DNA of 64,000 nt, taken from an uncultured Lachnospiraceae bacterium. Its GTDB lineage: Bacteria > Bacillota > Clostridia > Lachnospirales > Lachnospiraceae. The stretch spans positions 1 through 64,000 of the forward strand of contig CANPZL010000002.1 of the NCBI GenBank assembly GCA_947589055.1. The letters are read 5' to 3'. Positions within the stretch are counted from its first letter, which is position 1. Each line of letters starts with the position of its first letter. The translations under genes and the position numbers were made by a program. This document shows positions 19,880 through 26,768 of the stretch, one piece after another. The notes under the pieces are model-generated. The model was not told where the DNA came from and did not search any database. It saw only the letters and a program-made list of their open reading frames with translations.

Positions 19880-20416
19880 TTATTCTGTTTCCTGTATAGA
19901 ATCTGTAGGAGCCTCCGATGCATCTACTAAAGTGATCTCATGCTCGACTGCCAGTGCATTCAACTGACTTTCATACTCAGAAAACAAGGATTCCGATTCT
20001 ACAATCAGGCTATCCGCTTCATTCAGCAGATCCGTATCACAGGCTTCAATGGCCTCCGCCACTTTGGAAAGAGCATTCAGCTGTTTCTTTGCGCCATCAA
20101 CACAGATTGCTTTCACTTCCTGTACCTCCGGCGTCTCAGCAGGCACCGCATCCAGTTGTGCAAGATATTCCTCATACTTCGGTATAATGGAATCCCGCAA
20201 TGCACTTAAGAGCTGTTGAGAATCCGCCTCCTCGTCGGCGACATAAACATTATATTCATTGATAGCCGCTTTTTGAAGATTCTGCGTATCCGCCATGTCT
20301 GTCAGATATATATATAAATCCTCTTTTACCGCATCTGCTTTACCGCAGGCGGACAAGCTAAACATCAGCCCTGCCAGCAGCAATGCCGCAATCTGTCTTT
20401 TACTTTTGATCTTCAT
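19880..20416 (-). CDS. Small lipoprotein, unknown function
   Basis: 178 aa. The signal peptide RQIAALLLAGLMFSLSAC ends in a lipobox (LSAC, Cys24). The mature part is almost entirely helical and acidic, with spaced Ala and Leu (LLSALRDSIIPKYEEYLAQL, KKQLNALSKVAEAIEACD), like a three-helix bundle. No family is recognised. It is a single-gene unit: a terminator follows at once and larC ends 63 nt upstream. Confidence 0.75.
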   Translation of the reverse strand: MKIKSKRQIAALLLAGLMFSLSACGKADAVKEDLYIYLTDMADTQNLQKAAINEYNVYVADEEADSQQLLSALRDSIIPKYEEYLAQLDAVPAETPEVQEVKAICVDGAKKQLNALSKVAEAIEACDTDLLNEADSLIVESESLFSEYESQLNALAVEHEITLVDASEAPTDSIQETE

Positions 20417-20479
20417 AACGCTTCCTCTGTATTCTCATTTATAGTTGCTTACACATTTTAGCACAGAAACAGATAAAAT

Positions 20480-21727
20480 TCAATAACCTTTCCTTTGAAT
20501 TTCTTTCCGCACCGCTTCCAGACTGATGTTCTGCTCTCTGGCGATACGGGCGAGCTCCTCATATTCATACTTAGCCCGCAGCACTCCATATCCTTTTGAC
20601 GTTTTTTTGCATATCGGTCCATATGCGCTTTCTACTACTTCGCTTTCTCGTTCCAAAACATATCGTTCCATTCGGCTGCCCCGGATTCCAATAGTGGTAG
20701 TGTGTTGAAAGATTAAGGGAATAAGCGTTTCCTTTGTCTGCTCTGAACAAAGCACATGCAATACGATACCCGGCCGGGACTTTTTCATGCCCGCCGGTAT
20801 GGTAAATACTTCCAATGCCCCCGCTTCCAGCAGGCGCTCCATTGCAAAACCAATATCCTCTCCTGTCATATCATCTATATTGCAGCATAGCTCCCATACA
20901 GAGGAACGGGTATCCTCCGTTTCACCCAGCATGGCACGGACACAGTTAGCCGCCGGATAATCCTTTCTCCCCATACCATACCCTACAGCCTTTAACCGCA
21001 TCACCGGCATCGCACCAAAACGTGTGGCAAAATACTGTAACAGTGCAGCGCCGGTAGGCGTACAAAGCTCTCCCTGTATACTTCCTCCATAAACGGGTGC
21101 TTCTTTTAAGATCCATGCAGTCGCCGGTGCCGGAACCGGCAAAATACCGTGAGCGCACTGCACCTGCCCGCTTCCTACATGAATCGGGGAAACGATGATC
21201 TCCTCCACCGCAAGCTGGTCAAGCAGATAACAGACAGCGGTAATATCCGCTACAGCGTCCAGCGTACCCACTTCGTGGAAATGGATCTGTGATACGGGAA
21301 CGCCATGCACCTTACTTTCTGCTTCTGCGATCAGGCCATATACTGCCAACGCATCTTCCTTCACCTTATCCGGCAGTTTCAAACCATAAAGTATATCCCG
21401 GATCGCATGCAGACTGGTATGAACATGTTCTTTCTGATGCTCATGATCATGGAAATGCCCATGTGCCGGTGCCTGTCCATGCACATGCTCATGACTATGT
21501 TCGATTCCGTCAAATGCTCCTTCTTCTTTTCCATGCACCAATACCGAAACATAGGTTCCTTTTATTCCGCATTTTTGTATGCTTTCCTTTCGATATTCCA
21601 CATCCGGAATTCCCAGTCGGTTCAGTGCCTCTATCTGACTATCCATATCCGGAAACAGCTCTAACAACGCACCGGTCAGCATATCCCCTGCCGCACCCAT
21701 GCCGCAATCCAAGTATAGCGTTTTCAT
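20480..21727 (-). CDS. larC: Nickel-pincer cofactor biosynthesis protein LarC
   Basis: 415 aa. LarC is the cyclometallase that inserts nickel into the pincer cofactor of lactate racemase and related LarA enzymes. Family sequence includes YLDCGMGAAGDMLTGALLEL at the N-terminus, SQIHFHEVGTLDAVADITAV, and ELCTPTGAALL. A His-rich metal-binding stretch lies at about residues 77-107. In some lactobacilli LarC needs a programmed frameshift between two parts; here it is one continuous frame. Its start overlaps the larB stop by 4 nt. larE, needed for the same cofactor, is broken nearby. Confidence 0.94.
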   Translation of the reverse strand: MKTLYLDCGMGAAGDMLTGALLELFPDMDSQIEALNRLGIPDVEYRKESIQKCGIKGTYVSVLVHGKEEGAFDGIEHSHEHVHGQAPAHGHFHDHEHQKEHVHTSLHAIRDILYGLKLPDKVKEDALAVYGLIAEAESKVHGVPVSQIHFHEVGTLDAVADITAVCYLLDQLAVEEIIVSPIHVGSGQVQCAHGILPVPAPATAWILKEAPVYGGSIQGELCTPTGAALLQYFATRFGAMPVMRLKAVGYGMGRKDYPAANCVRAMLGETEDTRSSVWELCCNIDDMTGEDIGFAMERLLEAGALEVFTIPAGMKKSRPGIVLHVLCSEQTKETLIPLIFQHTTTIGIRGSRMERYVLERESEVVESAYGPICKKTSKGYGVLRAKYEYEELARIAREQNISLEAVRKEIQRKGY

Positions 21728-22479
21728 TTCTTTCCCTCCATATGATTGATCATACTCGCAAAGTAACCGGCACCAAATCCGTTATCAATATTGACCACCG
21801 AAACACCGCTGGCACAGGAATTTAACATAGAAAGTAATGCCGAAAGCCCATGAAAAGATGCGCCATAGCCCACACTGGTCGGAACCGCTATCACGGGACA
21901 ATCCGCCAGCCCTCCGATCACGCTTGCCAATGCACCCTCCATACCGGCGATAGCGATAATAACGCTTGCTTCCATCAATATTTCCTTGTATGCCAGAAGC
22001 CGATGAAGTCCGGCTACCCCTACGTCATACAGACGAATCACCTCGTTGCCTAGTATCTCAGCAGTCAGCGCCGCTTCCTCTGCTACCGGAATATCACTTG
22101 TGCCTCCGGTAGCCACGACAATACTGCCGATCCCGTTCGGAACCGGTCGTTCCCCCAAGATTCCGATCCTGGCTGTTTCATAGTAGACCAGCGGAACCTG
22201 TTTTTTAAGCGTCGCAGCCGCCTCCGGATCCAAGCGTGTGATCAGGATCCGTTCCTGTCCGTTCCTTCGCATGGTTTCAATGATTCCAAGCATCTGTTCC
22301 GGTGTTTTTCCGGCTCCATAAATCACCTCCGAAGCCCCCTGTCGCACTCTCCGATGCAAATCTACCTTTGCAAACCCTATATCCTCATACGGAGCAGTTT
22401 TCAACTTTAAGAGGGCATCTTCTACAGACAAAGCTCCCTGTCTTACCGCCTCCAATATTTCCTTTGTTTCGTTTTGCAT
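21724..22479 (-). CDS. larB: Nickel-pincer cofactor biosynthesis protein LarB
   Basis: 251 aa. LarB carboxylates and hydrolyses nicotinic acid adenine dinucleotide to start pincer cofactor synthesis. It resembles PurE in its C-terminal half: VVATGGTSDIPVAEEAAL, VYDVGVAG-type RLYDVGVAGLHR, IAIAGMEGALASVIGGL and PVIAVPTSVGYGASF. The N-terminal motif is EILEAVRQGALSVEDAL. It is translationally coupled to larC. The upstream membrane-protein gene is 130 nt away with a hairpin between, so larBC may have its own promoter. Confidence 0.95.
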   Translation of the reverse strand: MQNETKEILEAVRQGALSVEDALLKLKTAPYEDIGFAKVDLHRRVRQGASEVIYGAGKTPEQMLGIIETMRRNGQERILITRLDPEAAATLKKQVPLVYYETARIGILGERPVPNGIGSIVVATGGTSDIPVAEEAALTAEILGNEVIRLYDVGVAGLHRLLAYKEILMEASVIIAIAGMEGALASVIGGLADCPVIAVPTSVGYGASFHGLSALLSMLNSCASGVSVVNIDNGFGAGYFASMINHMEGKK

Positions 22480-22567
22480 CCCTTACCTCCAAGCCAATGC
22501 TTTTTATTTGTCGATTGCCGGATAAAACAATATCCGGCGGTCCTGTCCGATTCAAAATGGAATTTGT

Positions 22568-22603
22568 AAAAGCGGTCTTGCCAACCTTTTGCAAAACCGC
22601 TTT
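22568..22603 (-). terminator. Hairpin between the membrane-protein pair and larB
   Basis: AAAGCGGT and TTGC arms pair with their complements across a short loop; on the minus strand TTTTACAAATT follows. The T-tract is weak, so this may be a partial terminator or a processing site. Confidence 0.5.
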
Positions 22604-22608
22604 CTGCT

Positions 22609-22926
22609 CTAATCCTTTTTCTGAAACAGGGATTTTTTTATCACTCCCTTTGGATCCTGAATCAGCAGGATCACCAGCCATATGACCATTCCCAATGCAA
22701 CGACGGAAAGTCCCAGATAGAGATCATTCAGCATATCATAAGGCGCCGGAGTAAAAAACGCTGCCTGAAGCTCTACATATTCAAATATGGCATCAACCAG
22801 CCACATCAGAGAAGCTCCCCAGTATATCCAGCATAGAATCCCTATCTTCATTTCATCTTCCGGTGCGTTTTTATACCAGATAATCGTGCTGATAATAGCA
22901 GCAAATACCGTTGTCAATAATGTCAT
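22609..22926 (-). CDS. Small membrane protein next to larBC, unknown function
   Basis: 105 aa with three hydrophobic segments at about residues 2-17, 28-48 and 66-90, and a charged tail (DPKGVIKKSLFQKKD). Tyr/Trp-rich stretches (IGILCWIYWGASLMWLVDAI) sit in the second helix. No family is recognised. It follows the 132-aa membrane protein by 12 nt and certainly shares its transcript. The two may form a complex; a link to nickel-pincer synthesis is suggested only by position. Confidence 0.7.
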   Translation of the reverse strand: MTLLTTVFAAIISTIIWYKNAPEDEMKIGILCWIYWGASLMWLVDAIFEYVELQAAFFTPAPYDMLNDLYLGLSVVALGMVIWLVILLIQDPKGVIKKSLFQKKD

Positions 22927-22938
22927 CTGTCCAGCTCC

Positions 22939-23337
22939 TTACTTTTCGGACTTCCAGGAACGCAGTACCTTCTTTTCCGTTCCGGAAACCACCGCTACTA
23001 TCCCCAGCCATACCAGAGTTACTACTCCTGCCATGGCAATCCCGGCTGTCGCCATTTCCTGAAACATTTCAACCATGTCAGCCGGACTCCCTGCGGCTGT
23101 CAGAAATGGGAACCACGGAACGACCTCCCCGTGCCAGATGTGTTCAAATGCCAGCAGAGCGGAGCCTCCCCACAGCATATTGGAAAGCCAGTTCAGCTTT
23201 CTTGAAAACGGGATCCGTTCTACCGCTTCCGCCTCTTTTATGTTGAAAGTATCCTGCTTTTCCTCGTTTGCCTTCATGGTTTTTCCAACGATCGTTGTCA
23301 CCACTGCTTCCGTAACCGGTACAAGAAAACAAGCCAT
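22939..23337 (-). CDS. Small membrane protein next to larBC, unknown function
   Basis: 132 aa. The N-terminus MACFLVPVTEAVVTTIVGK forms a short hydrophobic helix, then a polar stretch, then two helices at about 48-68 and 94-116. The motif LLAFEHIWHGEVVPWFPFL holds two His and two Glu that could bind metal or heme, which is inference. I recall similar proteins in other Clostridia, without a known role. TAGGAGGG lies 8 nt before the ATG, and a good promoter is at 23439-23467. It leads the two-gene unit upstream of larBC. Confidence 0.72.
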   Translation of the reverse strand: MACFLVPVTEAVVTTIVGKTMKANEEKQDTFNIKEAEAVERIPFSRKLNWLSNMLWGGSALLAFEHIWHGEVVPWFPFLTAAGSPADMVEMFQEMATAGIAMAGVVTLVWLGIVAVVSGTEKKVLRSWKSEK

Positions 23338-23438
23338 AAATTTTCCCTCCTAACGATAAACCTTAAATACCTCGGCATACGCCATCCAGACTCCATCTGT
23401 ATGACGGTTGACCGAAACCATTTCCTGTGTTATATTCA

Positions 23439-23467
23439 AGCATAAATAAATTAAGCGTTTTTGTCAA
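23439..23467 (-). promoter_or_regulatory. Promoter of the two small membrane-protein genes
   Basis: On the minus strand TTGACA (23462-23467), a 17-nt spacer and TATGCT (23439-23444) precede a leader of about 95 nt. The -35 box overlaps the first codons of the larE remnant. Confidence 0.65.
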
Positions 23468-23866
23468 GAAATTCCAAACACGCAGACAGAAAAGAACAGA
23501 CATTAGAAGCCTATCTGTCAGAGCCTGGTAACGTAATGGCAGCTTTTTCTTCCGGTGTGGATTCTACCTTTTTACTGAAAACCGCTCATGACCTTTTAGG
23601 AGAAAAGGCGGTTGCAGTCACGGCCCGCTCCTGTTCCTTTCCCCAACGGGTCGTCAAAATCCCAGAAACCGTTGTTATCTCTGCAAACGGGAGTTGTTTT
23701 CCAAATTCCGAGAGCAAGAATTGAGGTTCTTCCAGATGAATTTCAAAGACTGCTCCAAGATGATATGGCTAAACGGATATATCAAACCCTGTTGGGACTT
23801 GGCTTCACCTATGTCACGTTTGATCTGGGCGGCTACCAATCCGGCAGTATGAATAAGACGCTGTAA
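23461..23866 (+). pseudogene. larE: larE remnant (ATP-dependent sacrificial sulfur transferase), internally deleted
   Basis: LarE inserts sulfur into the pincer cofactor and is normally about 270 aa. Here the N-terminal part survives in one frame (AFSSGVDSTFLLKTAHDLLG, then AVTARSCSFPQR), to about 23650. The C-terminal 48 residues survive in another frame (ARIEVLPDEFQRLLQDD, LGFTYVTFDLGGYQSGSMN) from about 23718 to 23866. Roughly 150 residues between are missing and the frames do not match. The PP-loop motif SGGxDS has become SSGVDS. The only start is a TTG without a ribosome site. A terminator remains at the end. This is a decayed gene, not a short real one. Confidence 0.88.
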
Positions 23867-23894
23867 ATCGTGCAGGGATTTCAGCGTCTTTTTT
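23854..23894 (+). terminator. Terminator at the end of the larE remnant
   Basis: AAGACGCTG pairs with CAGCGTCTT over an 18-nt loop, followed by a run of T. The left arm includes the last larE codons. Confidence 0.75.
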
Positions 23895-23908
23895 TCCGAC
23901 AGATAGAA

Positions 23909-25444
23909 TTACATTTCTTCTTGTTTCAGGGCTTCCTCTGCCTCCTTTTGCAGCCTTTCGTCATAGGAAAGCAACGGTTTTTCTTTTTTTCCTTTTATTC
24001 GCCGATTCACATAGTTTGCGGTAATCCTCGCCACTAACGGGAATAAAGAAATCACACCGATCAGGTTCGGCACCATCATCAGTCCGTTAAACGTATCCGA
24101 AATATCCCATGCCAGCGAAGACGTCATGACCGCACCGGAAATGATCATCAGAACAAAGATAACCTTATATACCTTCACCGCTTTTTCACCAAGCAGATAC
24201 TCAACTGCTTTGGCGCCATACTGAGACCAGCCTAAAACCGTGGTGAATGCAAAGAGAAGCATGGCGACTGCGATAAAGATTTCACCAAAATATCCAAATA
24301 CATTGCCAAATGCCTGGGAAACCAGCGTGGCATCATTTACTTCACCTATCGGAAGACCGGTTTCCAAATCAATATATCCGGAGGAAAGAACTACGATCGC
24401 AGTAATGGTACAGACTACGAAGGTATCAAAAAACACCTCAAAGATTCCCCACATTCCCTGTTTTACCGGTTCCTTTACGTTAGAGGCAGAATGTACCATG
24501 ACCGAAGAACCAAGTCCGGCTTCATTTGAGAATACCCCTCGCTTACAGCCCTGGGTAATCACCTGACGAATCGCAACCCCTGCCGCACCGCCTGCAACTG
24601 CCTTCACGCCAAAGGCAAATCGGAAGATTGCCGCAAACATCGCACCGACGGTATTGATATGTATAACAAACACAATCAAAGCTCCTACTATGTACGCTAC
24701 CGCCATAAAGGGAATAACCTTTTCCGCCACCGCTGCGATACGCTGTAAACCACCGATAATGATCAAGCCGGCAAGGATCATCAATACCAGTCCGATCAAA
24801 AGGTTGATCATCGGAACTCCAAATACTTCCCCTAATTCCACATGACTGAAAAAAGCGGATTCCAGATTCAGTACAATCTTGTTTACCTGTCCCATGTTTC
24901 CAATCCCAAAGGAAGCCAAGATTGTAAAAATGGAAAAGAATACGGCCAATACGGAAGCAATGCCCTTGCAGTATTTTTTACTTCCAAGTCCGTCTTTTAA
25001 ATAATACATGGCGCCGCCGGACCATTCGCCGGCCTGATTTCTTCTTCGATAATAGATACCAAGTACGTTTTCAGAAAAATTGGTCATCATTCCAAAAAAG
25101 GCGGCCACCCACATCCAGAATACCGCACCGGGCCCTCCGATCACGATTGCGGCGGAAACACCGGCAATATTTCCGGTTCCGATCGTCGCTGCCAAAGCGG
25201 TACAAAGAGCCTGAAACTGGGAAATCGTTTTCTTATCCGTTTTCTTGGTTGCCGAGCTGTTTTTCTGAAATACGCTTCCAATCGTTTCCTGCCACCAGTG
25301 TTTCAAATGCGAAATCTGAAAAAATCGAGTGGAACAGGTCATTAAGATACCGGTTCCGATCAGTAGAATCAAGCCAATCTTTACCCAAACAAAATCATTG
25401 ATCACATTATTGATATTTGTAAGCTGTTCAAAAAACCGTTCCAT
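23909..25444 (-). CDS. AGCS-family amino-acid:sodium (or proton) symporter
   Basis: 511 aa with about eleven membrane helices. The alanine/glycine:cation symporter family takes up Ala, Gly or Gln with Na+. Motifs include ALAATIGTGNIAGVSAAI, IGGPGAVFWMWVAAFFGM, GEWSGGAMYYLKDG, and KRGVFSNEAGLGSSVMVH. The C-terminus is charged. It is a single-gene unit with a likely promoter at 25518-25547. The substrate cannot be set between alanine, glycine and glutamine from sequence alone. Confidence 0.93.
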   Translation of the reverse strand: MERFFEQLTNINNVINDFVWVKIGLILLIGTGILMTCSTRFFQISHLKHWWQETIGSVFQKNSSATKKTDKKTISQFQALCTALAATIGTGNIAGVSAAIVIGGPGAVFWMWVAAFFGMMTNFSENVLGIYYRRRNQAGEWSGGAMYYLKDGLGSKKYCKGIASVLAVFFSIFTILASFGIGNMGQVNKIVLNLESAFFSHVELGEVFGVPMINLLIGLVLMILAGLIIIGGLQRIAAVAEKVIPFMAVAYIVGALIVFVIHINTVGAMFAAIFRFAFGVKAVAGGAAGVAIRQVITQGCKRGVFSNEAGLGSSVMVHSASNVKEPVKQGMWGIFEVFFDTFVVCTITAIVVLSSGYIDLETGLPIGEVNDATLVSQAFGNVFGYFGEIFIAVAMLLFAFTTVLGWSQYGAKAVEYLLGEKAVKVYKVIFVLMIISGAVMTSSLAWDISDTFNGLMMVPNLIGVISLFPLVARITANYVNRRIKGKKEKPLLSYDERLQKEAEEALKQEEM

Positions 25445-25649: not shown

Positions 25650-26768
25650 ATGAAAAAAATCCTTTTCTATATCAAACAGGAACCTGTTTTTATTATTTCC
25701 TTTCTTGCGGCGGTAATCAGCTGCTTTTTTGTACCGCCCAGCCTGGATTACATCGAATATATCGATTTTCGGACGCTGGCACTTCTGTATGCGCTGATGG
25801 TCGTTGTTGCCGGTCTGAACAAAGCCGGTATCTTTACCGCCTTTGCCCATACGCTCTGTCTTCGAGCAAAAAATATCCGTATGATCGGTATGTTATTGAT
25901 ATGTCTTTGTTTTTTCAGTTCCATGCTGATCACAAACGACGTAGCCCTGCTAACCTTTGTTCCTTTCTCCATAATCGTATTAAATATAGCCGGTAACGAT
26001 AACGATCTGCTCCGGATCGTCGTTCTGGAAACCGTAGCCGCCAATCTGGGAAGTATGCTGACACCGGTCGGTAACCCACAGAATCTATATCTGTATTCCT
26101 TCTACAACCTAACGTTTCCCGCTTTCTTAAGTATAACCTTTCCGGTATGGCTGCTCTCTTTTTTCCTGTTGCTTGGAAGCTCTTGTTTCCTTCCAAACAC
26201 ACATTTACCCGCCTTTCCGGAACAAAAGCAGAAGGTAGATACTAAATCCCTTATTATATATCTTTGTTTGTTTATCCTCTGCCTGCTTACCGTTATCCGG
26301 ATCCTTCCATGGCCGATCCTGTTGCTGATCCTGCTTCTGGTTCTTCTGCTTTACGACCGGCATACGCTTATGAAAGCAGACTTTTTCCTTTTATTGACCT
26401 TTGTAGCATTTTTCATTTTTGCAGGAAATCTTTCTAAGATCCCTAAACTTAACAGCCTATTGCAAGCGATGTTATCGGGAAGAGAGTATTGGACGGCGCT
26501 TTTGACCAGTCAGATCATCAGCAATGTGCCAGCAGCGCTTTTACTTTCCAACTTTACGGACAATGCCAGATCCTTGATCATGGGTGTGGATATTGGCGGG
26601 CTTGGGACCCCGATCGCCAGCCTGGCCAGCCTGATCAGTCTGAAGCTGTATTCCCAGACGAAACGTGCTAAGACAGGAAGATATATGTTGGAGTTTATAG
26701 TGATAAGCCTGCTCCTGTTAGTCATTCTTTCCGTTTTTCAGTTGAACATTCCAAACCTCTTTCCATAG
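25650..26768 (+). CDS. ArsB/NhaD/CitM-superfamily permease
   Basis: 372 aa, ten or so membrane helices, shorter than full SLC13 carriers. The family motifs are in the two half-repeats: FFSSMLITNDVALLTFVPF with NLGSMLTPVGNPQNLYLY in the first, and SNVPAALLLSNF with GVDIGGLGTPIASLASLI in the second. These match the anion-permease fold with Asn-Pro loops. The cargo could be an organic acid or inorganic anion and cannot be set from sequence. The start at 25650 follows ACCTGCGGGAG. A terminator follows about 185 nt downstream. Confidence 0.85.
   Translation: MKKILFYIKQEPVFIISFLAAVISCFFVPPSLDYIEYIDFRTLALLYALMVVVAGLNKAGIFTAFAHTLCLRAKNIRMIGMLLICLCFFSSMLITNDVALLTFVPFSIIVLNIAGNDNDLLRIVVLETVAANLGSMLTPVGNPQNLYLYSFYNLTFPAFLSITFPVWLLSFFLLLGSSCFLPNTHLPAFPEQKQKVDTKSLIIYLCLFILCLLTVIRILPWPILLLILLLVLLLYDRHTLMKADFFLLLTFVAFFIFAGNLSKIPKLNSLLQAMLSGREYWTALLTSQIISNVPAALLLSNFTDNARSLIMGVDIGGLGTPIASLASLISLKLYSQTKRAKTGRYMLEFIVISLLLLVILSVFQLNIPNLFP

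Follow-up and report, generated by a model that had tools for sequence, protein, structure and literature searches.

A pair of small membrane proteins encoded in the lar locus of an uncultured Lachnospiraceae bacterium, here called A and B, probably constitutes a two-subunit module for the uptake of nickel, perhaps also of cobalt, that replaces the importer NikMNQO. This reading draws on the pairing of the two genes, their linkage to unrelated sets of nickel genes, the mutual exclusion of A and NikMN, the place that A-B and NikMNQO share in lar operons, and a type of repressor common to both. Few nickel importers are known, and Clostridia are believed to depend mainly on ECF-type systems; A-B may well represent a new family of nickel uptake proteins, unrelated to the known importers.

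The window, that is, the whole stretch of 64,000 nucleotides that was analysed, carries the pair on its minus strand in the order A, B, larB, larC. Protein A (22939..23337; 132 aa with three predicted transmembrane segments, defined by its open reading frame and the family alignment) is followed after 12 nt by protein B (22609..22926; 105 aa, three helices and a short C-terminal helix), and each is preceded by a good Shine-Dalgarno sequence. Downstream of B, on the same strand, lie larB (21724..22479; NCBIfam NF033503, 290 bits) and larC (20480..21727; NCBIfam TIGR00299 and NF052512, with the LarC1 and LarC2 domains), both intact. On the other side and divergent to A, a larE remnant occupies 23461..23866 of the plus strand, with larE sequence recognisable from about 23488 to 23863. 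It retains its N- and C-terminal parts but has lost the middle and is frameshifted. The preliminary description had placed two small membrane proteins of 132 and 105 aa, 12 nt apart, between larB and a remnant of larE. The minus-strand coordinates, the NCBIfam matches, the larE sequence on the opposite strand with its deletion and frameshifts, and the absence of an intact larE elsewhere in the assembly bear this out, and neither protein family is described in the databases searched.

At least 391 relatives of A, spread over Clostridia and Negativicutes, were found in GTDB genomes taken at one per species. Given these relatives, the identities to typical homologues (~60% for A, ~70% for B) and the many invariant residues, A and B are, to judge from sequence, genuine genes and not chance open reading frames. 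In A, the invariant residues are M1, C3, W50, E65, H66, W68, H69, G70, E71, P74, E94 and W110 (alignment A1). Residues 65-71, EHIWHGE (23125..23145, minus strand; coordinates derived from the reading frame), lie where TM2 ends and make up a candidate metal site. The His/Glu/Trp motif noticed earlier, EHIWHGEVVPWFPFL, is thus indeed present, and EHxWHGE is kept in 136/137 homologues of A. The N-terminus M-A-C-F (23326..23337, minus strand), in which M1 and C3 are invariant in the alignment, is a possible further ligand. In B, W17, Y18, W36, W42, D45, N67, W83 and D91 are invariant and E49 is nearly so; the conserved acidic residues of D45-AIF-E49 lie in TM2 (22780..22794, minus strand, from alignment and reading frame). 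Both proteins have three hydrophobic segments, and their basic residues cluster in the first loop and at the C-terminal end. Because of this distribution and the positive-inside rule, we infer an N-out/C-in orientation for both, with the N-terminus and the TM2-TM3 loop outside. B was predicted with confidence as a three-helix membrane protein (pLDDT 93.7); the model of A is weak (pLDDT 70), which counts against the uptake reading.

Sequence searches of A and B against Pfam, NCBIfam, PADLOC and the PDB returned no family match. The Pfam scans took in A, B and all 73/61 members of their families, and none of these contained the CbiM (PF01891) or PDGLE (PF13190) domains; weak Pfam matches of A and B were scattered over unrelated families and were not accepted. 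Neither protein matched the CbtA and CbtB profiles (Pfam, NCBIfam), the Lar_N domain (PF09861) of the LarA superfamily or any anti-phage defence profile of PADLOC, and the NiCoT, UreH and HupE/UreJ profiles of Pfam and NCBIfam found no match among the window proteins at E values up to 10. A CbiQ-type T component or an ECF ATPase was encoded neither among the window genes at 19880-25444 nor in the lar-linked loci, and NikQ/NikO-type genes were seen only in loci without A. The fold matches of B were generic three-helix membrane proteins (VTC, DgkA) with Z <= ~7, scores that carry no meaning for helical bundles. A and B look alike by eye; a relation as paralogues was nevertheless rejected, as profile comparison scored no better than column-shuffled controls. 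That A and B show neither homology nor a significant fold match to known transporters counts against the uptake reading.

Profile search and neighbourhood analysis revealed that B follows A in 85/87 loci. Moreover, lar genes, scored as larB, larC or larE within ~2.5 kb on the same strand, lie beside A-B in 81/121 loci with enough flanking sequence (window included). About one third of the scorable loci have no nickel gene nearby, which counts against the uptake reading. The proximity recurs across bacterial classes and in varied orders, namely A-B-larB-larC, A-B-larB-larC-larE, A-B-larE-larB-larC and A-B-larC, the third of which is also found in Acidaminococcus (Negativicutes, L050) and in further groups of the phylum (L200, L201). 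Mapped by parsimony onto a tree of 138 A sequences, the lar linkage requires 19 changes, at least five of them on well-supported branches, indicating that it was lost or remade several times and retained in many lineages. Homologues of the pair thus do not keep away from lar genes, and this repeated lar and nickel linkage excludes, as the main explanation, that A-B is an independent unit that merely landed there. In family f11, several loci carry A without an adjoining B (L153, L162, L171, L172, L173, L187, L192), and an ArsP_1 permease or a DUF362 protein follows A instead. These copies may reflect a different use of A, and they count against a two-subunit uptake module.

The linkage of A-B to genes for nickel enzymes, or for the maturation of these, is not confined to lar and extends to NiFe hydrogenase and cooS. 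In five species of one genus, at loci without lar genes, A and B head an operon of the order A-B-protease-hypF-hypD-hypE-hydrogenase, and in one locus (L139) both NiFe hydrogenase subunits are encoded downstream of the A-B/hyp operon. In G161, a genome from the same family as the window genome, A-B comes directly after cooS, which encodes the nickel CO dehydrogenase and is itself preceded by an ABC transporter. The same order is found on plasmid pRUMAL02 of Ruminococcus albus 7 (Oscillospiraceae), where genes for a substrate-binding protein, a permease and an ATPase are followed by cooS, A and B, with A beginning 13 nt after cooS; the substrate-binding proteins of these two cooS loci are 67.5% identical. 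Across whole genomes, CODH is not enriched together with A (8/50 genomes with A vs 31/195 without), so that only the local linkage to cooS counts. A link to cobalamin genes is seen once, in G249, where A-B precedes cobT, cobU and cobS. Further metal-related neighbours, each assigned by Pfam at a single locus, are a ZIP transporter, a CobW-type GTPase and FeoA, and a second FeoA-like gene was assigned by eye (L073); many of the remaining loci have no informative neighbour. All but one of the 50 genomes with A in a sample of 245 carry LarB, LarC, LarE, CODH or a hydrogenase-maturation gene. In the exception (G129), A lies on a 5-kb contig whose neighbouring genes match another genus, and this copy may be contamination. 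The earlier suggestion of a tie to the nickel-pincer system is therefore right as regards nickel and too narrow as regards lar, since A-B is also linked to hydrogenase, CODH and cobalamin genes.

In the same sample of 245 genomes of the order (50 with A, 195 without), the survey of nickel importers covered CbiM and its long form. The long form corresponds to a NikM-NikN fusion (NikMN), as 8/8 Pfam-tested proteins contained CbiM plus PDGLE. NikMN was present in 0/50 genomes with A vs 41/195 without, counts that ignore kinship; among genomes with LarB, it was present in 0/39 with A vs 29/93 without. Counting CbiM of any length in the latter set gave 7/39 vs 46/93. Within the four genera that include genomes with and without A, NikMN occurred in 0/12 members with A vs 10/13 without; shared descent makes these counts non-independent, and when whole genera are counted the exclusion does not reach significance. 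Nine genomes with A do have some CbiM, in all cases the short form; one of these genes (G239) is cut off at a contig end in an assembly that is 9% contaminated. Where A is absent, NikMNQO is found inside lar operons, in the orders larB-larC-larE-nikMNQO (L267), larE-larB-larC-nikMNQO (L268, L269), nikMNQO-larC-larE-larB (L277) and nikMNQO-DUF3842-larC-larE-larB (L278). Thus, A-B holds the place of NikMNQO.

We propose that A and B form a small inner-membrane unit that would import Ni2+, and possibly Co2+, for cytoplasmic nickel enzymes and cofactors. A would capture the ion at the outer face via EHxWHGE, perhaps together with Cys3 and E94, and B, in contact with A, would add the membrane acidic residues D45 and E49 to the ion path. 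As no ATPase is encoded alongside A-B, transport would be secondary or channel-like. Of the options raised in the preliminary description, a small nickel-tied transport module is thus the best supported; the redox role considered there found no support. If uptake is indeed the function, A-B would explain the nickel supply to CO dehydrogenase, hydrogenase and the nickel-pincer pathway in gut and rumen bacteria, including the cultured Lachnospira eligens and Ruminococcus albus 7, and, with ~240 residues in all, would offer a metal transporter of very small size for study. The pair has the accessions WP_041688969 and WP_012740807 in Lachnospira eligens, and WP_013483715 and WP_013483714 in Ruminococcus albus 7.

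The ECF nickel/cobalt importers NikMNQO and CbiMNQO resemble A-B in their place in the lar operon, their association with nickel and cobalt gene sets and their small extra subunits, and NikM, like A, is conserved from Met1 (MHMADAL in NikM, MACF in A). They differ in having four components, whereas A-B consists of two proteins of ~3 TM segments without an ATPase and without sequence match to CbiM, PDGLE, CbiQ or CbiO. NiCoT, UreH and HupE/UreJ (PMC2667541) are secondary transporters that, like A-B, have no ATPase, carry a His/acidic motif in a membrane segment and are linked to nickel enzymes; however, they are single larger proteins (eight TM segments in NiCoT), and A-B has no Pfam match to them. 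CbtAB is likewise a two-gene system predicted from the same kind of genomic linkage (PMC2667541), but the predicted Cbt transporters have been described mostly in Proteobacteria and Actinobacteria and are tied to B12 (PMC2667541), whereas A-B is mainly nickel-tied, belongs to Firmicutes and does not match them.

The main rival to uptake is a membrane nickel chaperone, in which A-B would bind nickel delivered by a separate importer and pass it to LarC, HypA/B or the CODH maturation machinery. The same linkage to nickel gene sets would be expected for such a protein, and it would fit a pair that is small and lacks an ATPase or a large permease. We nevertheless regard it as rather unlikely, since a chaperone would be expected alongside NikMN, while A stands in for the transporter NikMNQO both in lar operons and within genera.

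The distribution of LarA bears on a second possibility, namely that A-B is the missing partner of the nickel-pincer nucleotide (NPN) other than LarA, an enzyme or carrier in the membrane that would use the product of LarBCE. LarA is missing in 38/39 genomes with A and LarB vs 56/93 LarB genomes without A, and ~15% of genomes have been reported to contain larBCE without larA, for which NPN-binding proteins yet to be recognised were suggested (PMC11796402). A-B also flags larBCE loci of genomes that lack LarA, in which what uses the cofactor is a recognised puzzle. However, A-B is found beside hydrogenase or together with CODH in genomes that have neither LarB nor LarE, which makes an NPN role less likely, and the window genome keeps A and B intact even though its larE is broken; we give this explanation little credence. 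Weak LarA matches in two genomes with A (G161, G248) turned out to be cross-matches to DUF362 proteins, a family whose Pfam clan also includes LarA (LarA_N; PMC11770544). A protein that combines an N-terminal hydrophobic segment with the domains Cu_amine_oxidN1 and DUF362 is encoded directly upstream of A in family f11 (L153 6703-8154, L164 8503-9966, L151 6537-7985 and others), in some cases before larE/larB, with an ArsP_1 permease downstream. This protein could be a LarA-like NPN user, which we note as a lead rather than a result.

That A-B is a redox unit of the membrane, such as a haem or quinone protein, which serves hydrogenase, CODH and lactate or hydroxyacid metabolism is as improbable as the NPN role of the pair. 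Two conserved His residues of A near the membrane face and the redox nature of CODH and hydrogenase would be in line with it, but H66 and H69 lie together at the end of one helix, unlike a haem pair that spans the membrane, larBCE is concerned with cofactor synthesis and involves no electron transfer, and no quinone or cytochrome family was matched.

A His-rich repressor of the CsoR/RcnR type adjoins both NikMNQO (L273) and A-B (L019, L023/L150), the proteins being 58-64% identical. E. coli RcnR controls an exporter, and the repressor beside some copies of A-B might suggest export of nickel or cobalt to protect cells during nickel enzyme production; this is very improbable, as the importer NikMNQO has the same type of repressor beside it, the pair replaces an importer, and an exporter is not expected within biosynthetic operons.

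In the assembly of the window genome (2.27 Mb, 98.7% complete), intact larE, LarA, CbiM/NikM and CODH were looked for and none was found. With larB and larC intact, larE a remnant and LarA not found, the nickel-pincer pathway of this genome is apparently interrupted at sulfur insertion. The locus may be at an early stage of decay, the pair may serve a nickel protein other than LarA and CODH, or the missing 1-2% of the assembly may hold an intact larE. With larE broken and LarA and CODH not found, no nickel client was identified in this genome, which counts against the uptake reading. Two species of the same genus carry intact larBCE together with A-B (L040 and L049, corresponding to G003 and G005 by matching coordinates).

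Upstream of A, a sigma-70-like sequence, TTGACA-17-TATGCT (23439..23467, minus strand), matches at 10/12 positions, and its -35 element overlaps the TTG start of the larE remnant ORF, as described before. It is a plausible promoter of A; the strength formerly ascribed to it is less secure, since promoter-like sites are not enriched in the region (5 vs 5.4 in shuffled sequence). Neither nickel-cobalt nor cobalamin riboswitches were detected near A, and a TPP riboswitch located ~1.9 kb away from A in L149 is part of a thiamine-type ABC operon. In genus g43, the sequence ~120 nt upstream of A contains a conserved palindrome, TATTCC-N5-GGAATA with N16-GAAT after it, even though the neighbouring genes differ (L142 8487, L145 8489, L144 8550, L195 2309, L181 1654 and L143); a single near-perfect copy is present in ~760 kb of G161, so that mapping defined no regulon.

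Three further features of the neighbourhood were observed. A DUF3842 gene lies upstream of A in >20 loci and is also found at L276 10791-11201, L278 5777-6199 and L280 7839-8285; recurring in lar operons with A-B or with NikMNQO, it may encode an unrecognised part of the nickel-pincer pathway. There are two distinct larE lineages, one usually located after larC and the other, which is shorter and diverged, lying between B and larB (L024, L026, L049, L050, L151, L156, L194 and others). Finally, anion-permease-like membrane proteins of ~370 aa are encoded no more than a few kb from A-B in several genomes (window 25650-26768; L144 6564-7694; L140, L195, L027), those of the window and L144 being 44% identical.
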